From contig JAQULP010000002.1 of NCBI GenBank assembly GCA_028718525.1, positions 1 through 64,000 on the forward strand: a stretch of DNA of 64,000 bases, in the 5' to 3' direction. Source of the stretch: Sulfuricurvum sp. Lineage in GTDB: Bacteria > Campylobacterota > Campylobacteria > Campylobacterales > Sulfurimonadaceae. Each line of letters starts with the position of its first letter. Position 1 is the first letter of the stretch. Below the pieces are notes generated by a model. It searched no databases. It saw nothing but the letters and a program-made list of their open reading frames with translations, and was not told the DNA's origin. The position numbers and the translations under genes are program-made. Below, piece after piece: positions 36,403-48,005 of this stretch.

Positions 36403-39400
36403 ATGAAAGCTTTTGGTGTGTTTTCACGGCTGATCGCCGTTTTTGGTGTGATGGTAATATTGGCTGTTTCAGGATGGGGATGGGGAGGTGGTGGAAGTTC
36501 ATCAAATAACCCCGCTGTTTCGCTGAGTTGTTCTCCTCTTAGTCTGAATGAAGGGAACAGCGGAAAAACTAATGTCACTTGTACGGTTTCATTGGATAAG
36601 GCACCCAATACCAAAGATTTGAAGCTGACGATTAAGACTTCTGACGGTACCGCAAAAACGAATGACAATGATTATAATAAACTGGATGATGATTTTAAAT
36701 TTAATAAAGACACATCTGAGTTAAATAAAGAATTTACTATTGAAATTAATGGTGATACGTCAGTAGAAAGTGATGAAACGTTTACCGCGAAAGTTCAAGA
36801 TAATGATACGGATAATGAGCAAGATTTTACACTGCCAAGTAATCAATCCATTACGATAGTCAATGACGACTCTGGAGGGGGAGGATCAATTTCGACTTGT
36901 CCCGGACAAATTATCACTAATCTTAACGGTGCAACGGCAAGTGCTACCGATTCAGCAAGTGGATCTATTTCGGCAAACGCAACCTACTATTATCAATTTA
37001 CCCCTGCTGTAACGGGGACGATACAGGTTAATTCAAGCGGGAGTAGTAGTAAAAATTCTCTTTTTATTAAAAATGGATGCGGTTCGAATTTATGGAGCCA
37101 GACTGATAATACGGATTCTAAAGCGTCAACGGCTATCAGTGTAGCGGCCGGTCAACAGATTGTCATTGCGTATGAAAATCGAAAAGATAGTTCGAAGACA
37201 TACAGTCTTGAATTTACCTTTACGGCCGGCGGATCAGGTACTACCACCCTTGATGTTACTAAAACTGTTGATAGCCCGAGTGCAAAAATTGGAGATCAGG
37301 TTACATTTACGATCGTAGGGAAAAATAATGGCAGTTCCAGTACACAAATAGAGATTATTGATACTTTACCAGCAGGATTAACCTATGTATCAGCTAATGA
37401 AAACAAACAAAATTTTAGCTGTTCACGAAGCGGACAAGTCATTACCTGTAATGGAAGCCGTAATTTTTCTCCAAATGAAAGTGTTGCAATAACGGTTACC
37501 GCTACCGTAGCAGCTAGTGGTACATTAACCAATACAGCTACGATCAAAGGGGCAAGCGGTACCAGTGTCATTGATACTGCTACAGCATCGGTAACGGGTG
37601 ATAATGGGGCACTTTCTGTATCAAATGCTTCTTTGAGTGAGGGTGACAGCGGTAGCAATCCAATGACATTTACCGTTTCACTCGATACATTGAATCCAGC
37701 ACAAGATGTAACTGTATCGTATGCTACGTCAAATGGAACCGCTACAGGGGGAACAAGTTGTACCAGCGGAGTCGATTATGTTACTAAAACAGGAACGGTA
37801 ACCATACCTCATAATACATTGTCAGCGACATTTCAGGTATCGGTATGCGGTGATACAACCGATACCGTAGATGAAACGTTTAATATAACACTTTCGAATC
37901 CGGTGAATGCAAGTATCGACGGTGCGACAGGAATAGGGACAATCAATGATGATGATGGAGTTATTCTTGGGTCAAATGACATGTGTTATGATACTCCGAC
38001 AACAAGTGGAGTATGTACAGGATTGGCAGGATTGAATTGTACGGTAACGACAACGATTAGGAATAAAAGTGGGGTCGCTTTAGACAATGTTCAACTGATT
38101 AAAGCGTATAATGGGATCAGCATGGGGGTTATCAGTGCAATTGGAATTGATGCTACCGCTAAGACAACTGCAACGGATACTGATAATGCGGAAACAAATG
38201 CTGCTCTTTCTTCATTCGGTTCAAATTTCGGGTTTAGCGGAACATACAATAAAGGGATTGTCTATCGCCCAGATACTTCTTCCCCATGGGGAACAAGTGA
38301 ATCCCATACGGTATATGATCGAACGGGCTTTGCATTCAACTTGGGAACAATGGAATATGTCGCTCAATATACAAAAGGGGGCAAAACTTATCAAAGTCAG
38401 CTAGCTTCATGTTCAATTAATACGTCTAGCCCTAGTACACGCGATTTTACAAAAACATTTAGTGCGAATATAAATGGTAACATGCAAATTATTGGTAACT
38501 CAGTCATGTTAAGCGGAACGCAGTGTGCTCCGGCAACAACCAACAATAATAATTTAACGCTTAAATTTGCGAATAAAGATACAGCTGTATCAACATTTAC
38601 ACGTTTCAACTCAACGTCTGCCGATTTATCGCTTCCGGATGGTATTGTAGCGGATGATATAGAATGGGCAGGATTGTACTGGCAGGGTCGATTAAGCAGT
38701 TCTTCATCCAAAAAAGCAAACGGGCAAAGTGTTCTTTTAAAAACGCCGGCCATGAACGATTATGTGACTATTCAGACGGATCCAAGCAAGTTTAATTGGA
38801 CAACCAGTCAATTTGAATATCAAGGTGTTGCCGATATAACCGATTATGTCAAAAGTGGAATGGATGGAACGTATTGGGTAGCCAATGTGAATGCTGAAGA
38901 GATGAGTAATGGATATGGTGCTTGGTCATTGGTAATCGTTTATAAAGAACAAGCAGCGTCTCTTAAAAATATTTCGGTCTATGATGGATTCATGGGTATC
39001 TATAAAGGGGCAAGTGGAACGAACGGAATTTATAACAATAAACCGGTTACTTTATCAGGTTTTTTAACCCCTACAAGTGGGGATGTTAATTCTAAATTTT
39101 TAGTCTTTGCCGGGGAAGGGGATATATCACTTGCTGATAGTGTAACTATGACAGATAATACCAATACAGCTCAATCATTCGGGAGTAATGTTTTTAACTC
39201 CAGTGAACAGATTGAAGGAGTGAATGTCATATCGCGCAACCCTTCTTGTGCCAATACTATAGGCGTTGATATCGATACGTTTAATGTTGGTTCTACTAGT
39301 TCTACAACACCTATCATTGGGAATGCTCAAACAGAGACAACAGTGACACTTACCAGTGGAGGAGATGAATATTTTCCAGGGGTATTTGCATTTTCAACCG

Positions 39401-41991
39401 AATTGTATACTCCAGATGTCTGTTACACAGAAAATGTTCTTTTTAACAACTTACCAGTTTCATCAAGTAATTTACCATCAAGTGGCGATGTAGTGACGTA
39501 TGATGTCGGTATTACCAATAAAAATAATGAAACTGCAAAAGGGGTTTTTATCGAAAAAGTTTTCGATAAGCCTCGTGAGATTACTTATGTTGCCAACAGC
39601 ATGAGTATTGCGCCGATTCCGGGAACCACGTATTCGAGCAAAACGGATACACTCAATGATGATACAGCAGAATTTGCAAGTGATACCAATACATCAAAAT
39701 TTTTCTTAGGAACGGGTGCATCTGCGGGAATGGGTGGGAGCATTGCCAAAGACGTTCTAACCAAGTTTAAATACAATACCCAAATTGGTGATCAGAATGC
39801 AAGTGAAAATATCTATCTTGTCAGTTATCGAAATGATCAGCTCGGGGTAGATTTTACCGGAATCCCGATCCGTAAATGTCAGGATTTCAATAATAGTTTC
39901 GGTATCCAAGTTCCAATTCCAGGAAAATTTAATACGGTAATGACAGGTCGGGTAACTGATGGCAGTGATAATGGAAGTCCTTACAGCGAAAATAGATTAT
40001 TGACCCAAATAACAAATAAGAATTTTTCACTCGATGTTCTATCATTGGCAGATGATTTAAGAACAATAAATACTGGATTTAAAGGGGTGGTTCAAGTTGA
40101 GTTTATTACGCCTCCGTATGATACGTGTGCGGATGCTCCATTGTTGGCAGGAAGCCCTACATTGTACGCTGGATTTGTTGGTACAAGTCAAGGAGGAGGG
40201 CGTGCTGCTGTAGAAACCGATAACGGTGCGACTTCCTTCGCTATTCCTACTGCATCAAGTAATACAGCTGCTCGGGTTCGATATGTTGTCAATAGCTCAA
40301 ACAGTACAGTTCAATGGAATTGCACGAATAATACAGATGCGTGTATTTGGGGAATGCTTGTAAGTACATTCGGAAATAATGCCAATACTCCTTGCAGCGC
40401 TGAATGTCAGCCTGGTGGTGGTAGCGGTGCCAATCAAAAAACTCCAGCATGTGTTGAATGTGTTTTTGGTCCCTCCCATACAAAAACATCCTGTTCTAAA
40501 GATGTATTCGCAATCCGTCCTGATCGAATCAATATTGATGTCAATGAGACACGATTGATTGGAGGAAAGTTATACCAATATAATATGGATGCAACGCAAT
40601 ACGGGATCACGACAGCTTCAGCCGGGTATACACAAACAATTGATAATACATCAGATAAAAATGGAACTATGCAACTTATTGTTCCAACGGGTTGTACGTT
40701 GGCATCATCTCCTATACCTTTGAATCAATCGATAACCTTTAACAGTGGGGATGGAAGTTTAGCATGGCAATATCCAAATGTTGGAGATGTGAATATTACT
40801 GTAGCTGATCAGAATTGGGTTATGGCAGATTTGAATAGTTCTTCACCTTCAGATAGTGATTGTGTAGAAGGAAGCACTTCAAATTCCATTGACGAAAATG
40901 GAAAAGTCGGGTGTTTGATCAAAGGGATAAAACAGGTAACTTTTTTCCCAAAACAGTTGGATGCAGCGATGACAATAGTCAACAAAGCTTCAAGTGGAAG
41001 CTATACGTATTTATCAAACGAGCGAAATATGTCAGTACCAATGAATGTCAATATTACTGCCTCCATAGAAGGTGGTGGAACAGCAACCAATTATACTGCT
41101 AACTGTTTTGCAAGAGATATTAACACATCAATATCATTAGTAAATGATAAACCACTTTTATGGAATACGGCAAAAACAAGAATTAATTTTTATGATGATT
41201 TAAATATAACATCAAAACAAATGAGTCAAATAAGACCATCAGCTATTTTTAAAAGTGGAGAGGGAAATTTTACAAATGGTGTTGCCCCAATTAAGTGGTA
41301 TTTTAATTTTGATAGAAATCAAACCATTCCTGAACCTTCATTTAATATAGCTCGAAACGATTTTAATATTACGTCAATTATTGATCAAAATTCAACGAGT
41401 GGTAATGATTTTGATCGAACAAATGATATGAATGTTACTTTTGTTTACGGCCGTTTTATCCCAAGAGACGTACGGGTTTTCGGTAACAGCGGATTCAGCG
41501 CCAATGGATGGTATGAAGTGTTTGCTGCGCCGGCAATCGGAGCAACGGCGTTAGTCCCAAGCCGCAATGAAAGCGGATGGTATATCAACAGTTTACATAA
41601 CGATGCAACCGATGGAGACGCTTCGGTGAGTCGTGTAAGCCCGGCTCCTACGGGTGTCGCTTTGCCGTTAACATCGGTATCGAATGCAACGGGGATAGAG
41701 ACGTATACTTTCGTCGGGCAAACACCGCCGTACAGTGCGAAAGCGCATATCGATACCGACTCGTGGCTGTGGTACGGTATCAATGCTAGCGGTTACGTTG
41801 ATCCCGACGGAACACATATGGATTGCTTTACCCATCCGTGTTTCAATATCAATGTGGTTCAGCCGCTAGGGGCATCGGGAAGTGCAAAAAGCGGAGCCGA
41901 GCAAAACAAAGGGAGCAAATCAACCGTAAACAGTGCCAAATCCGGCAGCACCTTTAAAAGTACGAGCGAATACGCTCCTTCGATCCGATGA
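36403..41991 (+). CDS. Giant secreted multidomain surface protein, putative pilus-tip adhesin
   Basis: 1862 residues; start 36403 follows AAGGAGG. A signal peptide (VFGVMVILAVSG) is followed by WGWGGGGSSS where a lipobox cysteine might be expected. Domains by pattern: Calx-beta-like (~40-157), a pre-peptidase C-terminal-like domain (~165-275), DUF11 (~283-396), a second Calx-beta (~403-520), a DUF3344-like region with DDIEWAGLYWQGRL and GAWSLVIVYKEQ (~700-1000), a second DUF11-like domain (~1026-1132), a cysteine-rich stretch (~1331-1366) followed by DVFAIRPDRI and NVGDVNITV, recalling MshQ-type proteins, and a conserved C-terminus (~1680-1862). It overlaps the first pseudopilin gene by ATGA. 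I infer a tip adhesin carried by pseudopilins. Confidence 0.65.
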   Translation: MKAFGVFSRLIAVFGVMVILAVSGWGWGGGGSSSNNPAVSLSCSPLSLNEGNSGKTNVTCTVSLDKAPNTKDLKLTIKTSDGTAKTNDNDYNKLDDDFKFNKDTSELNKEFTIEINGDTSVESDETFTAKVQDNDTDNEQDFTLPSNQSITIVNDDSGGGGSISTCPGQIITNLNGATASATDSASGSISANATYYYQFTPAVTGTIQVNSSGSSSKNSLFIKNGCGSNLWSQTDNTDSKASTAISVAAGQQIVIAYENRKDSSKTYSLEFTFTAGGSGTTTLDVTKTVDSPSAKIGDQVTFTIVGKNNGSSSTQIEIIDTLPAGLTYVSANENKQNFSCSRSGQVITCNGSRNFSPNESVAITVTATVAASGTLTNTATIKGASGTSVIDTATASVTGDNGALSVSNASLSEGDSGSNPMTFTVSLDTLNPAQDVTVSYATSNGTATGGTSCTSGVDYVTKTGTVTIPHNTLSATFQVSVCGDTTDTVDETFNITLSNPVNASIDGATGIGTINDDDGVILGSNDMCYDTPTTSGVCTGLAGLNCTVTTTIRNKSGVALDNVQLIKAYNGISMGVISAIGIDATAKTTATDTDNAETNAALSSFGSNFGFSGTYNKGIVYRPDTSSPWGTSESHTVYDRTGFAFNLGTMEYVAQYTKGGKTYQSQLASCSINTSSPSTRDFTKTFSANINGNMQIIGNSVMLSGTQCAPATTNNNNLTLKFANKDTAVSTFTRFNSTSADLSLPDGIVADDIEWAGLYWQGRLSSSSSKKANGQSVLLKTPAMNDYVTIQTDPSKFNWTTSQFEYQGVADITDYVKSGMDGTYWVANVNAEEMSNGYGAWSLVIVYKEQAASLKNISVYDGFMGIYKGASGTNGIYNNKPVTLSGFLTPTSGDVNSKFLVFAGEGDISLADSVTMTDNTNTAQSFGSNVFNSSEQIEGVNVISRNPSCANTIGVDIDTFNVGSTSSTTPIIGNAQTETTVTLTSGGDEYFPGVFAFSTELYTPDVCYTENVLFNNLPVSSSNLPSSGDVVTYDVGITNKNNETAKGVFIEKVFDKPREITYVANSMSIAPIPGTTYSSKTDTLNDDTAEFASDTNTSKFFLGTGASAGMGGSIAKDVLTKFKYNTQIGDQNASENIYLVSYRNDQLGVDFTGIPIRKCQDFNNSFGIQVPIPGKFNTVMTGRVTDGSDNGSPYSENRLLTQITNKNFSLDVLSLADDLRTINTGFKGVVQVEFITPPYDTCADAPLLAGSPTLYAGFVGTSQGGGRAAVETDNGATSFAIPTASSNTAARVRYVVNSSNSTVQWNCTNNTDACIWGMLVSTFGNNANTPCSAECQPGGGSGANQKTPACVECVFGPSHTKTSCSKDVFAIRPDRINIDVNETRLIGGKLYQYNMDATQYGITTASAGYTQTIDNTSDKNGTMQLIVPTGCTLASSPIPLNQSITFNSGDGSLAWQYPNVGDVNITVADQNWVMADLNSSSPSDSDCVEGSTSNSIDENGKVGCLIKGIKQVTFFPKQLDAAMTIVNKASSGSYTYLSNERNMSVPMNVNITASIEGGGTATNYTANCFARDINTSISLVNDKPLLWNTAKTRINFYDDLNITSKQMSQIRPSAIFKSGEGNFTNGVAPIKWYFNFDRNQTIPEPSFNIARNDFNITSIIDQNSTSGNDFDRTNDMNVTFVYGRFIPRDVRVFGNSGFSANGWYEVFAAPAIGATALVPSRNESGWYINSLHNDATDGDASVSRVSPAPTGVALPLTSVSNATGIETYTFVGQTPPYSAKAHIDTDSWLWYGINASGYVDPDGTHMDCFTHPCFNINVVQPLGASGSAKSGAEQNKGSKSTVNSAKSGSTFKSTSEYAPSIR

Positions 41992-42656
41992 GGTTACCGA
42001 TGCGTTCGGCAATGGCGATGATCGAACTGATTTTTGCTATCGTCATTATTGCCATAAGCATAATGACGATACCCTCCATGATGAATATCGCCGACAATGC
42101 GACGAAAAAGGCGGTAATCGATGATGATATCATCCCCCGCCTAAGCGGATGGGTCTTTGATAAATTTCAGGCCCGTTGGGATCAAAATTATCAGACCGGA
42201 GGATCGGGACCGCTGATCATGAACCCGGATACGGGGGATTTGAATTGTACCCGTAACGGTAGGTACCGATGGGGATCGGATGAAAATATCACCTCAATGG
42301 AGTGCAATACAGCCGCTAATCCATCGGTTATCCCTGCTCCGGGTGACGGAAACGTCTCACAGGGGATTGAACAGTTAAACGGCGGTAGCGAGACGATTAG
42401 CGTAACGGCAACGGGTGGAGTAACCTATAGCGTGGATGCGACCTACAGTGTCCGTTACGTTGATTCTACGGTGGTTCGTAACGGCAATACCGAAACGGCG
42501 GTTTGGAGATTGGGATCTTCAGGAGATATGGTGCCGGACGGCTCTGTCGGGACGGCTATGAATACGCGGACTCATCTCAAACGGGTTGTAACACGGTTTG
42601 AGAGTCCTGATACGAACATCACGCTCACTTTTTTCAAATCCAACAAAGGGAACTGA
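41988..42656 (+). CDS. Type IV pilin-like (pseudopilin) protein 1
   Basis: A 222-residue protein with a class III signal: a short basic leader, then RSA^MAMIEL with alanine at -1 and the conserved glutamate at +5, and a hydrophobic helix IFAIVIIAISIMTIP. The mature domain is strand-rich with two cysteines (DLNCTRNG and SMECNTA) that could form a disulfide. Start at ATG 41988 overlaps the giant gene stop (ATGA). It resembles MSHA- or GspH/I-type minor pilins; exact class unknown. Confidence 0.75.
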   Translation: MRLPMRSAMAMIELIFAIVIIAISIMTIPSMMNIADNATKKAVIDDDIIPRLSGWVFDKFQARWDQNYQTGGSGPLIMNPDTGDLNCTRNGRYRWGSDENITSMECNTAANPSVIPAPGDGNVSQGIEQLNGGSETISVTATGGVTYSVDATYSVRYVDSTVVRNGNTETAVWRLGSSGDMVPDGSVGTAMNTRTHLKRVVTRFESPDTNITLTFFKSNKGN

Positions 42657-43540
42657 TGAAAAAGGTTACGATTAGACCTGCCTTCACGATGATAGAGCTT
42701 CTGTTTGTCATAGTTGTTTTGGGGATTGTCGGAGGGCTCGCGCTTGAAGCGGTTCGCCAATACTATGAGGGGATCTACAGAACGGGAGAATACGCCAAAC
42801 GATCGGCCGATGCCGATCACATTCTCGATCAACTCTCAAAATATTTTGAATATGCGATTGACAGTTCCATTGTCAATATAGATAGTTCGGAAACATGTTT
42901 GGGGCGGCCGGACACGAGCAGCAGCGGAAATTATACGGTCGCGTTTGTCGGGGTTGACCGTGACGGCTTGCAAGGGATCTGGGACGGTATCCGCTGGAGC
43001 CCGACATGGAGCGAAGAGGTTATGACGGCAACGGGAAGCACGATTGTGACGGCCAGTGACACGAACTATACGGCTGGTGGAATCAGTAATAATAACGATG
43101 CCCTTTTTGATGATGACATCAATAATACCAATATTTGTGACGATTATAAATGGAACAGTACCTCGACAACCACCAAATACAATCTGATAACGGCGCATAC
43201 CGATCATACCCTTACGCTGCAGACGACCCCCGCAAACGGTAAACGAAAGTATCTGTTGCGCAGCGGTTACGCCTTTAAGGTAGAATCTGACGGAAAATTT
43301 GTGATGTATGATAATTTCAGACCCTGGAAAGGGGAAACTTATTCAACCGGAAGAGATAACACGCTGGGTGAAAATGTTGCCCACTTCTACGTGAATTACG
43401 CCTCAGATGCCAATGAATCGACACAGGGGTTGATATGGCGATTAAAAGTATGTATGCAGGGGATCGATACAAACTTAAGCAACAGCAGTTCAAGCTCTAA
43501 TGATATCTGCAGAGAAAGGACGGTACATGTACGTTACTAA
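42656..43540 (+). CDS. Type IV pilin-like (pseudopilin) protein 2
   Basis: A 294-residue pseudopilin, the clearest of the three: leader MKKVTIRPA, cleavage before FTMIEL with Glu+5, then LFVIVVLGIVGGLALEAV. Its large globular part contains several cysteines (SETCLGR, NICDDYK, LKVCMQG, DICRERT) and many Asn/Asp/Thr. Size fits a J- or W-type minor pseudopilin (GspJ/PilW-like). It overlaps the genes on both sides, by one base upstream and 14 bases downstream. Confidence 0.8.
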   Translation: MKKVTIRPAFTMIELLFVIVVLGIVGGLALEAVRQYYEGIYRTGEYAKRSADADHILDQLSKYFEYAIDSSIVNIDSSETCLGRPDTSSSGNYTVAFVGVDRDGLQGIWDGIRWSPTWSEEVMTATGSTIVTASDTNYTAGGISNNNDALFDDDINNTNICDDYKWNSTSTTTKYNLITAHTDHTLTLQTTPANGKRKYLLRSGYAFKVESDGKFVMYDNFRPWKGETYSTGRDNTLGENVAHFYVNYASDANESTQGLIWRLKVCMQGIDTNLSNSSSSSNDICRERTVHVRY

Positions 43541-43973
43541 ACGCCCTGCATTCGCAATGATATTGGCTATTTTTGTCGTATTGCTGGTGGCTATGGGTGG
43601 GGTCATGCTCCTGAATAAAGCCTCTTTGCGGGGCAAATCAATCGGTGACAATTATCTGAAAGCCCAAGCCGAACTTCTGGCTGAGAGTGCTACGGAATTT
43701 GCGGTTATGCGTGCACAAGGGGACGCTCATGCCGCTAACAGCTGTTTGAACGAGCTGAATATTACGGTAAATGACGCTTCGAATAATCCTATGTTCGATG
43801 TTAATGTTAGTTTAGCCTACTCTTTTATGGGAGCGGCGACATCTCCGGCGTGTACGACGTTAGCTTCATTAACGGGGAAAACTACCATGATATTGATTGA
43901 TACGACGGTTACCGATCATAATCTGAGTACGGAACCGATACGGGTTCATAGACGTTCTTGGCAAAAATTATAG
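43527..43973 (+). CDS. PilX/GspK-like minor pseudopilin without Glu+5
   Basis: Start at 43527 behind AGGACGG gives 148 residues. The leader TKRPA is followed by FAMILAIFVVLLVAMGGVMLL, so position +5 is leucine and not glutamate. Loss of Glu+5 is characteristic of tip pseudopilins such as GspK and PilX-like proteins. The mature domain has the LKAQAELLAESATEFAVM helix and a cysteine pair (NSCLNEL, SPACTTL). Last gene of the operon; a weak hairpin follows at 43988. Confidence 0.72.
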   Translation: MYVTKRPAFAMILAIFVVLLVAMGGVMLLNKASLRGKSIGDNYLKAQAELLAESATEFAVMRAQGDAHAANSCLNELNITVNDASNNPMFDVNVSLAYSFMGAATSPACTTLASLTGKTTMILIDTTVTDHNLSTEPIRVHRRSWQKL

Positions 43974-44040: not shown

Positions 44041-44418
44041 TTATAAGACGAGTTGAGAGATTTTAGCGACAACGTCTTTTTCGCGTACCGGTTTCATCAG
44101 AAAGCCGTTTGCTCCGCATTCAAGCGCTTCACCTTTTTTAGTCTCATCGGTCGTAAGGACGATCACCGGAAGTTGGCGAAGGGATTCATCGGCGCGTATG
44201 ACTTTGAGCATTTCGATCCCACCCATCACCGGCATAATAATATCCAGCAGGATGATATCGATGTCATCCTGCGTCTTGAGTACACCGATAGCGTCGGCTC
44301 CGTTTTTCGCCTCGACAACTTGGGAGACATTGGGTGTTTTCATCAGCATAGTTTTGAGTAGTTTGAGATTGATCATATCATCATCAACCGCAAGTACTTT
44401 TAATTTTTTATCGCTCAT
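44041..44418 (-). CDS. CheY-like single-domain response regulator
   Basis: A 125-residue receiver domain with the acidic pocket VDDD, phospho-acceptor Asp in ILLDIIMPVMGG (~residue 57), the signalling threonine in VLTTDE and the lysine in FLMKPV. No output domain. It is the last gene of a leftward four-gene phosphorelay and lies 14 nt after the hybrid kinase, which is its likely phosphodonor through the Hpt protein (inference). CheY-like action on flagellar motors or another target is open. Confidence 0.9.
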   Translation of the reverse strand: MSDKKLKVLAVDDDMINLKLLKTMLMKTPNVSQVVEAKNGADAIGVLKTQDDIDIILLDIIMPVMGGIEMLKVIRADESLRQLPVIVLTTDETKKGEALECGANGFLMKPVREKDVVAKISQLVL

Positions 44419-44432
44419 TTACTTTCCCTGCT

Positions 44433-47400
44433 TTAGATAAATTTTTCGAACACTAGGCGCAAAAGGTCTCTATTAATAACGTTTTTAATAATCTCATGAA
44501 CGTACATAGTGTCTTCGCTATCGTTCGGTGTACTTGGATCGGTTAACATAACCAACGAAATATCATTATTGGACGACTTGATTATATCATAGAGATCCTT
44601 GAGATTAAGCCCCTGTAACGTTTTATCAAATAATGCCAGTTTATAACGTCTTTCCGTAATCTCATCTACCATCTGATCGACTGAGCTGACACTTTTATAG
44701 GTGTACCCCAAGTCATCCAAAATACGGCAGAAGAGTTTTAATTCGAGAGGATTCTGTTTTGCAATTAATATATCCGCATCATACGCAGAACGGTGATCAT
44801 CAGAGATAAGCACTTCTTCTTCTATCTCATCATTAGCCGAAACGAGATCGTCGTTAGCATAATAATTAGGCATGATTTCTATCGCTTCTTCTTCCATGAT
44901 CTCGCTAACAGTCTCAACTGAAGGTTCCTCATCGGCTGTAGCTATCTCCTCATCGACGGCTTCATCATCAACAGTTATCGGTGAATCAGCCATTTCGTTG
45001 ACCATAGGTTCCTCGTCCATTTCCTCAGTAAACGCAGGTACCTCTTCAATACTTGGGGTATTTTCCTCTACCGTTTCACTGAGGGCAGCACTCTCATCCA
45101 CCGTATCAACGGATTCATTGCTTAACTCACCCGCATCTTCGAATGCAGAAAGTCCCTCATCGGCCGTTTCCACAACCGCTTCATCGGCAATTTCAATCTC
45201 CGCTGAATGGCTATCTTCTACCGGCTGGGCAGGGGAAGCGATATCGTGAATGGATTTTGGAACAGCCTTAATATCAACGATTTTGTGAGACAAGAAATTA
45301 TTGAGTAAGGTAATCAGTTCAGAACGTACAAGCGGCTTAGTCGTATATTCATCCATACCGGCTGCTAGGAAACGCTCACGGTCACCTTTAAGGGCATTTG
45401 CGGTGAGTGCAATAATCGGGATATGGTGCTGTGAATAATCTTCTTCAAAATCCAATATCTCTTGCGTTGCTTCAATACCGTCAAGTACCGGCATTTGGAT
45501 ATCCATGAAGATAATATCAAAATTGCCGTTTTTACGTTTTTCAAATGCTTCAAGACCGTTATTGGCGATGGTAATTTCCAATCCGATATCTTCCAAGGTT
45601 CTTCGGATCAGTTTTTGGTTAATAATATTGTCTTCGGCAACTAAGGCACTCGCCGCAAAGCGTGAGTTCTTTTCATCGAATTTTTTGCGGCGTGTAACTT
45701 TTTGTTTACGGTTGCTGAACGCTTCGGCATCGTAGGCATCAAGTGTGGAACGAATTTTTGAGCTGTTGAGTGGTTCATACAGAACTTTGAAAATATCGAT
45801 TCCCATCGAGTCGATTTTTTTCATGTAGTACGATTTGGTAATGAGTACCAACTGCTCCTGTGCCGTAGCGTACGCCAACAGATCATTTTCGTTGGTGTAG
45901 TCGTTATCGACAAACAAAAGGTCATAATTGACTTGACGCTCTAACATTTTGAGTTCGTCTAGCTCATGGAAGGTTGTATAGCTGACACCGAAATAATCCA
46001 GATACTCTTTTAGATAGGTATTTTGGAGTTTTTTCTTGGCACTGTTTTCCAAGATTACGGCGTTGATGTTTGAAAATGACCCTTTAAGCGGATCGTTCAG
46101 GGTTTCGATCTCTTCAAATTCAAGGGTGAAGAAGAACATTGTTCCGTTACCCGGCTCACTTTCAAGATCGAGTTTAGATCCCATAAGCTCTACGAAACGG
46201 CTCGAAATGGTTAGACCGAGACCTGTACCGCCGTATTTACGGGTAATAGAGGTATCCGCTTGAGAAAATGCTTCAAAAATACGGGATTTTTGTTCACTGG
46301 TGACACCGATACCGTTGTCTTTGACTTCAAAACGGACGCGTGCCCGATTAAGGTGCTCACATTCGACACGACGGATATCGACGCTGATCGATCCGCCGCT
46401 ATTGGTAAATTTGACAGCATTGCTGAGGAGGTTGATGATGACCTCTTTGATTTTGGTCGGATCCCCTTTAAGCGGACGCTCAAGACTCGGATCGACATAA
46501 CAGGCAAGGTCGATATGTTTTTCGGAAGCACGGACACCGTAAACCTCGACGGCACTTTCAAACTCATCCATAGGATTAAAGACGATCTCTTCAATTTCGA
46601 GTTTATTGCTCTCGATTTTAGAGAGGTCAAGGATATTATTGATAATTTCAAGGAGATTTTCGGAACTTTTTTCGATGATGTCGATAAATTCACGCTGTTC
46701 ATCATGCAATTCGGTATCTTTTAACAATTCGGTAAATCCGACGATACCGTTCAACGGTGTACGAATCTCATGGGACATGTTGGCGAGGAACATCGATTTG
46801 GCTTCGGATGCTTCCAAGGCATATTGTTTATCGTTAAGGGTTTGCTCAATGATACGTTCGAGCAATGAGTACGCCTGGGCGGTCCCCTCTGCGGTATCGA
46901 GATTGATGGTATGGCTTAATGCTTCGGCCTCGGTATCATGGGCATCTTCAGCAACCCGTTTAAGAACCGATTCAAGGTTTTTAATATTTTTGGTGATTTC
47001 GGTTGAGAGCAATACGCCCAGAATCCCGACCAAAACAGCAACGACCCAAACGATAACGGCAATAATGAGGAGTTGAACGGCATTGTGTTGAACGGTCGAT
47101 GCCCGTTCATCCATGGCGGAAATCAGTACTTTCTGGGCTGCGTCAATCGCATTGATCTTTTCGGAGATCATTGCGAACCAAACCCCCGATTGTGTTTCGT
47201 AGGCGCCGGTTGCACTGGCTTGCAATATACCGGTTCGTTCGGTGGTAATGTCTTGAAAGAGTTCGGTATTGTCTTCATTGAACAGGGTTGATTGCAGTTG
47301 AGCTTGAATCTCTTTGTCTTTCATCCCCTCTATGGTGAGAGAGTCGGCTTTACTGACAAGGGCGATCCATCGATCGAGTTCATCGGCGCTAAGGGGGGTA

Positions 47401-48005
47401 GCACGGGAGAGAAGATAGGTAATGTAATCCCGTTCGATACTACTGTATTCGTTTGCACGTACCAATGAGAGGTAGGTACCGGAGAGGGCATTGATCTCTT
47501 CGTCGAAATGGAGCCCCGCCAACTCGGTTAATTCATTAATAAGGGTCTCTTGCGATTTTCCGTAAACATTGGAAAAGATCTGATTGAAGTCAGCCGTTTG
47601 GGCATCAACGGTAGGACGGGATTGGTTGATATTGGTCTTGAGTTTGGCAATGACTGAATTAAGGTTGACGGCTTTATCGCTTTCGGCATTGTGGGCATCG
47701 GCTACCGAAGATAAATATTTTTGATAGTCGGCAATTTTTTGATCAACAATAGATCGTTGTGCATGAAGGGATCTTTGTGTAGCCGGCGATCCGTTCCCCA
47801 TATACATCACGGTCATACCCCGTTCACGGGAAAGATTATTAATCAAATCGGTGAGCTGTTTATTGCCTTCCAGGCGCACTTGTAATTGTTGTGCACCCTG
47901 ATAGCTGACATACGCATTAAAAACGTAATAACTCGCTAACGTGAAAAGAATCAGAATCGGTAAGAGACTGATGAGTCGAAGTCGATTTCTAAGTCCTAGT
48001 TGCAT
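44433..48005 (-). CDS. Hybrid sensor histidine kinase with NIT domain and multiple receivers
   Basis: A 1190-residue inner-membrane kinase. TM1 ~11-30; periplasmic all-helical nitrate/nitrite-sensing (NIT) domain ~45-300, with SRERGMTVMYMGNG; TM2 ~311-335; linker; HisKA with phospho-His412 (NMSHEIRTPLNG); HATPase with NLLSNAVKF and GGTGLGLTI; a degenerate receiver ~645-760; an intact receiver ~786-905 with Asp835 (FMDIQMPVLDG); a very acidic linker ~925-1075; and a C-terminal degenerate receiver ~1083-1190 (phospho-Asp region LALFDKTLQG). A nitrate or related ligand is inferred from the NIT domain only. Confidence 0.88.
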   Translation of the reverse strand: MQLGLRNRLRLISLLPILILFTLASYYVFNAYVSYQGAQQLQVRLEGNKQLTDLINNLSRERGMTVMYMGNGSPATQRSLHAQRSIVDQKIADYQKYLSSVADAHNAESDKAVNLNSVIAKLKTNINQSRPTVDAQTADFNQIFSNVYGKSQETLINELTELAGLHFDEEINALSGTYLSLVRANEYSSIERDYITYLLSRATPLSADELDRWIALVSKADSLTIEGMKDKEIQAQLQSTLFNEDNTELFQDITTERTGILQASATGAYETQSGVWFAMISEKINAIDAAQKVLISAMDERASTVQHNAVQLLIIAVIVWVVAVLVGILGVLLSTEITKNIKNLESVLKRVAEDAHDTEAEALSHTINLDTAEGTAQAYSLLERIIEQTLNDKQYALEASEAKSMFLANMSHEIRTPLNGIVGFTELLKDTELHDEQREFIDIIEKSSENLLEIINNILDLSKIESNKLEIEEIVFNPMDEFESAVEVYGVRASEKHIDLACYVDPSLERPLKGDPTKIKEVIINLLSNAVKFTNSGGSISVDIRRVECEHLNRARVRFEVKDNGIGVTSEQKSRIFEAFSQADTSITRKYGGTGLGLTISSRFVELMGSKLDLESEPGNGTMFFFTLEFEEIETLNDPLKGSFSNINAVILENSAKKKLQNTYLKEYLDYFGVSYTTFHELDELKMLERQVNYDLLFVDNDYTNENDLLAYATAQEQLVLITKSYYMKKIDSMGIDIFKVLYEPLNSSKIRSTLDAYDAEAFSNRKQKVTRRKKFDEKNSRFAASALVAEDNIINQKLIRRTLEDIGLEITIANNGLEAFEKRKNGNFDIIFMDIQMPVLDGIEATQEILDFEEDYSQHHIPIIALTANALKGDRERFLAAGMDEYTTKPLVRSELITLLNNFLSHKIVDIKAVPKSIHDIASPAQPVEDSHSAEIEIADEAVVETADEGLSAFEDAGELSNESVDTVDESAALSETVEENTPSIEEVPAFTEEMDEEPMVNEMADSPITVDDEAVDEEIATADEEPSVETVSEIMEEEAIEIMPNYYANDDLVSANDEIEEEVLISDDHRSAYDADILIAKQNPLELKLFCRILDDLGYTYKSVSSVDQMVDEITERRYKLALFDKTLQGLNLKDLYDIIKSSNNDISLVMLTDPSTPNDSEDTMYVHEIIKNVINRDLLRLVFEKFI

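Follow-up and report, generated by a model that had tools for sequence, protein, structure and literature searches.

In the msh locus of Vibrio cholerae, mshQ is the last gene of the operon, and we take DUF6701 to be the family of the C-terminal domain of its product; among open-licence papers we found none that treats DUF6701 together with MshQ or LamG. Loss of this putative adhesin reduces surface MSHA, and the remaining pili still retract (PMC7096442); MshQ has also been listed among the MSHA components of unknown function (PMC9815625). Both reports are counted here against placing an MshQ-like protein at the pilus tip. In type 4 filaments generally, the tip complex is capped by a pilin that lacks Glu5 (PMC10191384), and strand complementation between PilX and PilY1 has been predicted for T4aP (PMC13190605).

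MSHA-type machines (MSH systems) were reported from Epsilonproteobacteria in 2019 (PMC6668835), and MshL and MshM genes are annotated in Campylobacter ureolyticus (PMC3758288). Because of the 2019 report, and because MshQ has already been recognised as a putative adhesin, the suggestion made in an earlier note that the present locus is an undescribed system is unsupported in its broad sense. What appears to be undescribed is an unlinked, giant-first tip operon, since our search of open-licence papers found no description of one in Campylobacterota.

Here we analyse four genes on the forward strand of the window, a stretch of 64,000 nucleotides from Sulfuricurvum sp. Computation shows their order, the association of this gene set with a pilus machine, the pilin types (including a J-type fold) and the mosaic structure of the giant proteins. 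Together, the products of the four genes probably form the tip (priming) complex of an MSHA-type type IV pilus made by this cell.

The Giant Exported Protein and Its Relation to MshQ

The source genome (G000; 31 contigs, 83% complete) carries the tip operon on contig C2. Its first gene (36403..41991) gives a product of 1862 aa, the length stated in the earlier note, with an N-terminus that looks by eye like a Sec-type export signal. Pfam searches recovered the two domain families that had been named for this protein, each in two stretches: Calx-beta (PF03160, E 1.2e-19) and DUF11 (PF01345, E 1.5e-17). One Calx-beta domain covers residues 38-156 (36514..36870), the DUF11 domain covers residues 283-385 (37249..37557), and a second Calx-beta region, with approximate boundaries set by the second Pfam stretch and by alignments to relatives, lies at about residues 403-533 (37609..38001). 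It is followed by a central variable region at about residues 663-1250 (38389..40152), a string of beta-sandwiches according to the AlphaFold2 model, fold comparison and Pfam. The previously proposed DUF3344-like region was not found: the domain search gave no match at E<=1 in the giant, and this family is absent from the 25 that Pfam gave for the central part of 51 such proteins. LamG/ConA-like lectin modules were detected by Pfam in the central part of 10 of 51 giants.

The AlphaFold2 model of residues 663-1862, built with 51 aligned giants, is a string of beta domains with a mean pLDDT of 81.9. Set against known folds, this 1200-aa model matched nothing beyond generic beta-sandwiches, for example integrin, antigen I/II and Gram-positive pilin domains, and since these are confined to model residues 340-508, the comparison is uninformative on the DUF6701 part; a PDB sequence search returned nothing for the giant. 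The final 39 residues are of low confidence in the single-chain model, yet they end in a conserved motif. This extreme C-terminus is conserved per lineage, as YAPxIR in the window genus, RxIxW in the order and GVKxFR in machine-linked paralogs.

The C-terminal base domain, at about residues 1353-1823 (40459..41871), is homologous to DUF6701 by way of relatives. For the window protein, Pfam gave no match to DUF6701 at E<=1, which we count against its place at a pilus tip. This family was matched in 22 of 100 relatives' genomes, 17 of them over the cut-off, versus none of the 14 control genomes. Window-type giants with such matches include those of G075 (2.7e-23), G017 (an ortholog, 4.5e-15) and G008 (1.9e-10), and a direct match was obtained for 6 of 56 C-terminal segments. 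Residues 671-1839 of the window giant align to the G075 giant at 2.1e-87 (BLAST), and the window protein is thus homologous to DUF6701 at one remove. It may be described as a diverged MshQ-like relative, and a tip adhesin candidate; we do not file it as MshQ proper because its own DUF6701 match is missing. The MshQ-like part proposed in the earlier note is supported through relatives' giants, though not by a match in the window giant.

The likeness to MSHA of V. cholerae includes relatives' giants with a C-terminal domain of the DUF6701 type, some of them also with LamG or lectin modules, as well as adjoining minor pilins and an MSHA-type secretin and ATPase in the window genome. The window giant differs from MshQ in its Calx-beta and DUF11 head and in a DUF6701 part that lies below Pfam detection. 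The giant gene stands first in the window operon, whereas mshQ stands last in msh, and members of the window genus have the tip operon and the machine at separate loci.

The Three Minor Pilins

Three small genes follow in frames that overlap as the earlier note had described, the junctions being read directly: ATGA at 41988-41991 between the giant and pilin 1, TGATG at 42654-42658 between pilins 1 and 2, and a 14-bp overlap at 43527-43540 between pilins 2 and 3. Pilin 1 (P0002) occupies 41988..42656, although its start codon may be 42000 instead of 41988; pilin 2 (P0003) occupies 42656..43540 and pilin 3 (P0004) 43527..43973. Promoter and terminator scans of the locus gave a signal no higher than that of shuffles. 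Convergent to the operon, at 44041-48005, the window carries genes for a 125-aa response regulator and a hybrid histidine kinase of about 1190 aa; this pair keeps its position in most of the window-genus loci examined, which makes a regulatory link possible.

The class III (prepilin) leaders attributed to these proteins can be seen by inspection in all three (RSA/MAMIELIF, RPA/FTMIELLF and RPA/FAMILAIF), with a clear pass in a prepilin model for pilin 2 only (NCBIfam GFxxxE, 20.8 bits vs a cut-off of 16.3), which also exceeds the Pfam N_methyl cut-off in the genome search. Glu5 is kept in pilins 1 and 2 and absent from pilin 3. By its position and Glu5, pilin 1 is PilV/GspI-like. The model of pilin 2 (pLDDT 86.9) has its best fold matches in EpsJ (Z 8.9, rmsd 3.8, 138 aligned) and XcpW (Z 8.4), while non-pilin rows reach Z 3.1 or less; Foldseek alone put no pilin high for this protein, and the ranking comes from a second aligner. 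In a PDB sequence search pilin 2 gave matches to the N-terminal pilin helix only. With its Glu5 prepilin leader and predicted J-type fold, pilin 2 can be classed as a minor pilin of the GspJ/PilW type. For pilin 3, the PDB sequence search gave nothing convincing, the GspK match is weak (E 0.013), and the C-terminus RSWQKL belongs to a conserved end motif, RRSxQKL. Its prepilin leader without Glu5 and its last place in the I-J-K series point to a K/PilX-type pilin and hence to a putative cap.

The trio resembles GspI-GspJ-GspK in the I-J-K order, in the likeness of the pilin 2 model to EpsJ/XcpW and in the lack of Glu5 in pilin 3. It differs in lying outside the gsp cluster and in its coupling to a giant adhesin, and pilin 3, at 148-157 aa, falls well short of the 307 positions in the GspK model. 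With PilY1/PilC and the FimU-PilV-PilW-PilX pilins, the locus shares a large modular non-pilin protein encoded together with minor pilins of the I, J and K types, a variable N-terminus on a conserved C-terminus, and translational coupling. The beta-propeller domain of PilY1 (PF05567) has no match at E<=1 in the window genome; the comparison with PilY1 made in the earlier note holds as an analogy, and identity with PilY1 is ruled out.

Conservation of the Gene Set

Within the order, 74 of 100 genomes gave BLAST matches to the giant. The earlier note had held that relatives lacking the pilins would speak against its interpretation; this did not prove to be the case, and the trio lies immediately 3' of the giant, in the order I, J, K with a K pilin without Glu5, at 29 of the 35 related loci. 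Because so many loci repeat it, the giant-I-J-K order lies far beyond chance. The pilins are upstream of the giant at one locus, and at five (G032, G040, G075, G083 and G092) the adjacent trio is missing, which is counted against a tip complex; G032, the closest relative of the window giant, is a draft of 57% completeness. Some loci (L017, L074, L084) have an additional fourth pilin with Glu5. In G007 the operon is split by small genes between the trio and the giant (L071:4147-5722), which by eye resemble toxin-antitoxin, nucleotidyltransferase and HEPN genes.

Loci where the giant has no adjacent pilins, together with the occurrence of large Calx-beta/DUF11 surface proteins outside pilus systems, would suit a free or outer-membrane adhesin whose coupling to pilin genes is merely transcriptional. 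We hold this to be very improbable, as the gene order is conserved, the genes overlap, the set co-occurs with a pilus machine and the C-terminal end motifs of the giants are conserved.

The Pilus Machine

A search for pilin and ATPase genes elsewhere in the genome, proposed in the earlier note, located both. A cluster on contig C1 encodes a PilO-like protein, a secretin, an ExeA-like ATPase, a TPR protein, an assembly ATPase and a platform protein. The secretin is an MshL equivalog (TIGR02519, 256 bits vs a cut-off of 250.2), and the adjoining assembly ATPase matches PF00437 and PF05157 over the cut-off and has an MshEN domain. The platform protein has a T2SSF domain with no match to an MshG-specific model, and the AAA ATPase and TPR proteins occupy the places expected for MshM and MshN with no specific model matched. 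Candidate major pilins, of which none matched an MshA-specific model, are encoded on contig C3. The unlinked position of the tip operon relative to this machine is counted against a tip complex.

At 13 of 13 loci (L090-L102), a paralogous giant and pilins are followed on the same strand by a whole MSHA-type machine, comprising an MshL secretin and MshM-, MshN-, MshE- and MshG-like proteins. This machine-linked cluster carries an MshE-related c-di-GMP domain, and its giants, including a truncated fourteenth copy, form a separate clade in a quick tree (98% support). A profile of the giant C-terminus detected the giant in 144 of the 298 genomes of a phylum survey: in 142 of the 149 with a close MshE-type ATPase (E<=1e-140, a threshold set after the data had been seen) vs 2 of the 149 others. 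The Fisher p of 3e-73 is not to be taken literally because the genomes are related and the threshold was chosen afterwards. Seven genomes have a close ATPase and no giant, and these are counted against a tip complex. The survey pattern recurs inside two families: within f14, giant and close ATPase occur together only in genera g60 and g69, and in family f11, genus g41 has neither.

Four genomes of 99-100% completeness (G031, G055, G070 and G079) encode the giant with its minor pilins (loci L072, L084, L106 and L067), although each has exactly one assembly ATPase of full length and a single clear secretin, and these two lie at the MSHA-type locus. They are the strongest point for the MSHA-type assignment, and one independent of thresholds.

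These genomes also bear on the suggestion that the trio consists of pseudopilins for type II secretion, with the giant as their secreted substrate. The window genome does have a complete type II secretion system on contig C6, and pilin 2 matches GspJ-type pseudopilins. However, the C6 system is already supplied with G, H, I, J and K genes, complete genomes with only the MSHA-type secretin and ATPase keep both giant and minor pilins, and in 13 relatives giant and pilins lie inside MSHA-type clusters. The substrate interpretation is accordingly rejected, its probability being marginal. The window genome holds further secretins: one in a pilus-like system with pilins and an ATPase (C3:15000-24600, L051), present in only some relatives and with an ATPase that shares no more than 39% identity with its MSHA-type counterpart, and a fourth near a diverged T2SSE-family ATPase (C17:22291-27846).

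A tip complex serving mainly DNA uptake, with the giant as a DNA-capture head and the machine as a counterpart of Cts in Campylobacter jejuni, also deserves consideration. In the cts locus the genes run secretin, ExeA-like ATPase, assembly ATPase, platform protein, an order that the C1 cluster shares. Outside the window, at C3:80632-83940 (L052:5633-8941), three pilin genes stand directly before priA, which is the context of the C. jejuni competence pilin gene cj0683, said to be unique to Campylobacter (PMC10046745). We nevertheless consider this function unlikely: no DNA-binding domain was found, and lectin/LamG modules in relatives' giants point to adhesion. Moreover, the small-genome genus that we take, from genome size and placement, to be the C. 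jejuni group has no giant and only a diverged ATPase, which falls among the weaker matches of the survey, although C. jejuni is naturally transformable. A type IV pilus tip module of a giant surface protein coupled to three minor pilins and comparable to MSHA/MshQ, as the earlier note had proposed, is supported by the conserved trio and the association with an MSHA-type machine.

Mosaic Structure of the Giants

In pairwise comparisons of giants, stretches that are nearly identical alternate abruptly with stretches of 20-40% identity. Residues 1383-1662 of the window giant find their best match mostly in other families of the order (up to 65%, vs a genus median of 12-30%), whereas residues 1663-1862 (41389..41988) are of the window-genus type, with a median of 33-60% vs 10-25% for the order. 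Among 22 further members of the genus, the best match of the core region was never an order-type row. The window giant is a natural chimera whose match to the local lineage is confined to its last ~200 residues, and this suggests that they are the module that must match the local minor pilins, i.e., a docking module. Tandem giants in G043 (L107:3788-14365) have 2.3 kb 3' ends that are 99% identical at the DNA level and first ~1100 residues that are divergent; past the first giant, the sequence reads as the start of pilin 1 and then breaks off, and this copy resembles an alternative or silent cassette.

Perhaps the giants are a recombination-driven set of adhesive heads that can be exchanged while the docking tail stays fixed: the heads, and even the greater part of the DUF6701 base, would be swapped between species, and each lineage would keep only the last ~200 residues matched to its own minor pilins. 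We offer this as a tentative idea, somewhat less probable than its opposite.

Proposed Mechanism and Significance

We infer that the giant docks by its C-terminal tail, is located at the tip and functions in adhesion. Minor pilins I, J and K would assemble first in the inner membrane as the first layer of the filament, with the K-type pilin, devoid of Glu5, capping I-J-K as in other type 4 filaments. The giant, presumably exported by Sec, would dock via its last ~200 residues on the K cap, in analogy to the strand complementation predicted for PilX and PilY1. The MshE-type ATPase would then extend the pilus, the giant leading through the MshL-type secretin. Its N-terminal Calx-beta and DUF11 domains and central beta-sandwich modules would form a long, exchangeable adhesive head on the conserved DUF6701-like base, and this head may bind a surface, a cell or a glycan.

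With the giant present in about half of the 298 surveyed Campylobacterota genomes, a large natural data set for MshQ becomes available, and the natural domain swap predicts an adhesin docking site on the minor pilins. If heads are indeed exchanged on a fixed tail, the specificity of the pilus tip could change without rebuilding of the pilus. These data suggest that pilus-tip adhesins are common in this phylum, whose members live in sediments, vents and guts, including lineages that have been discussed mainly for DNA uptake.
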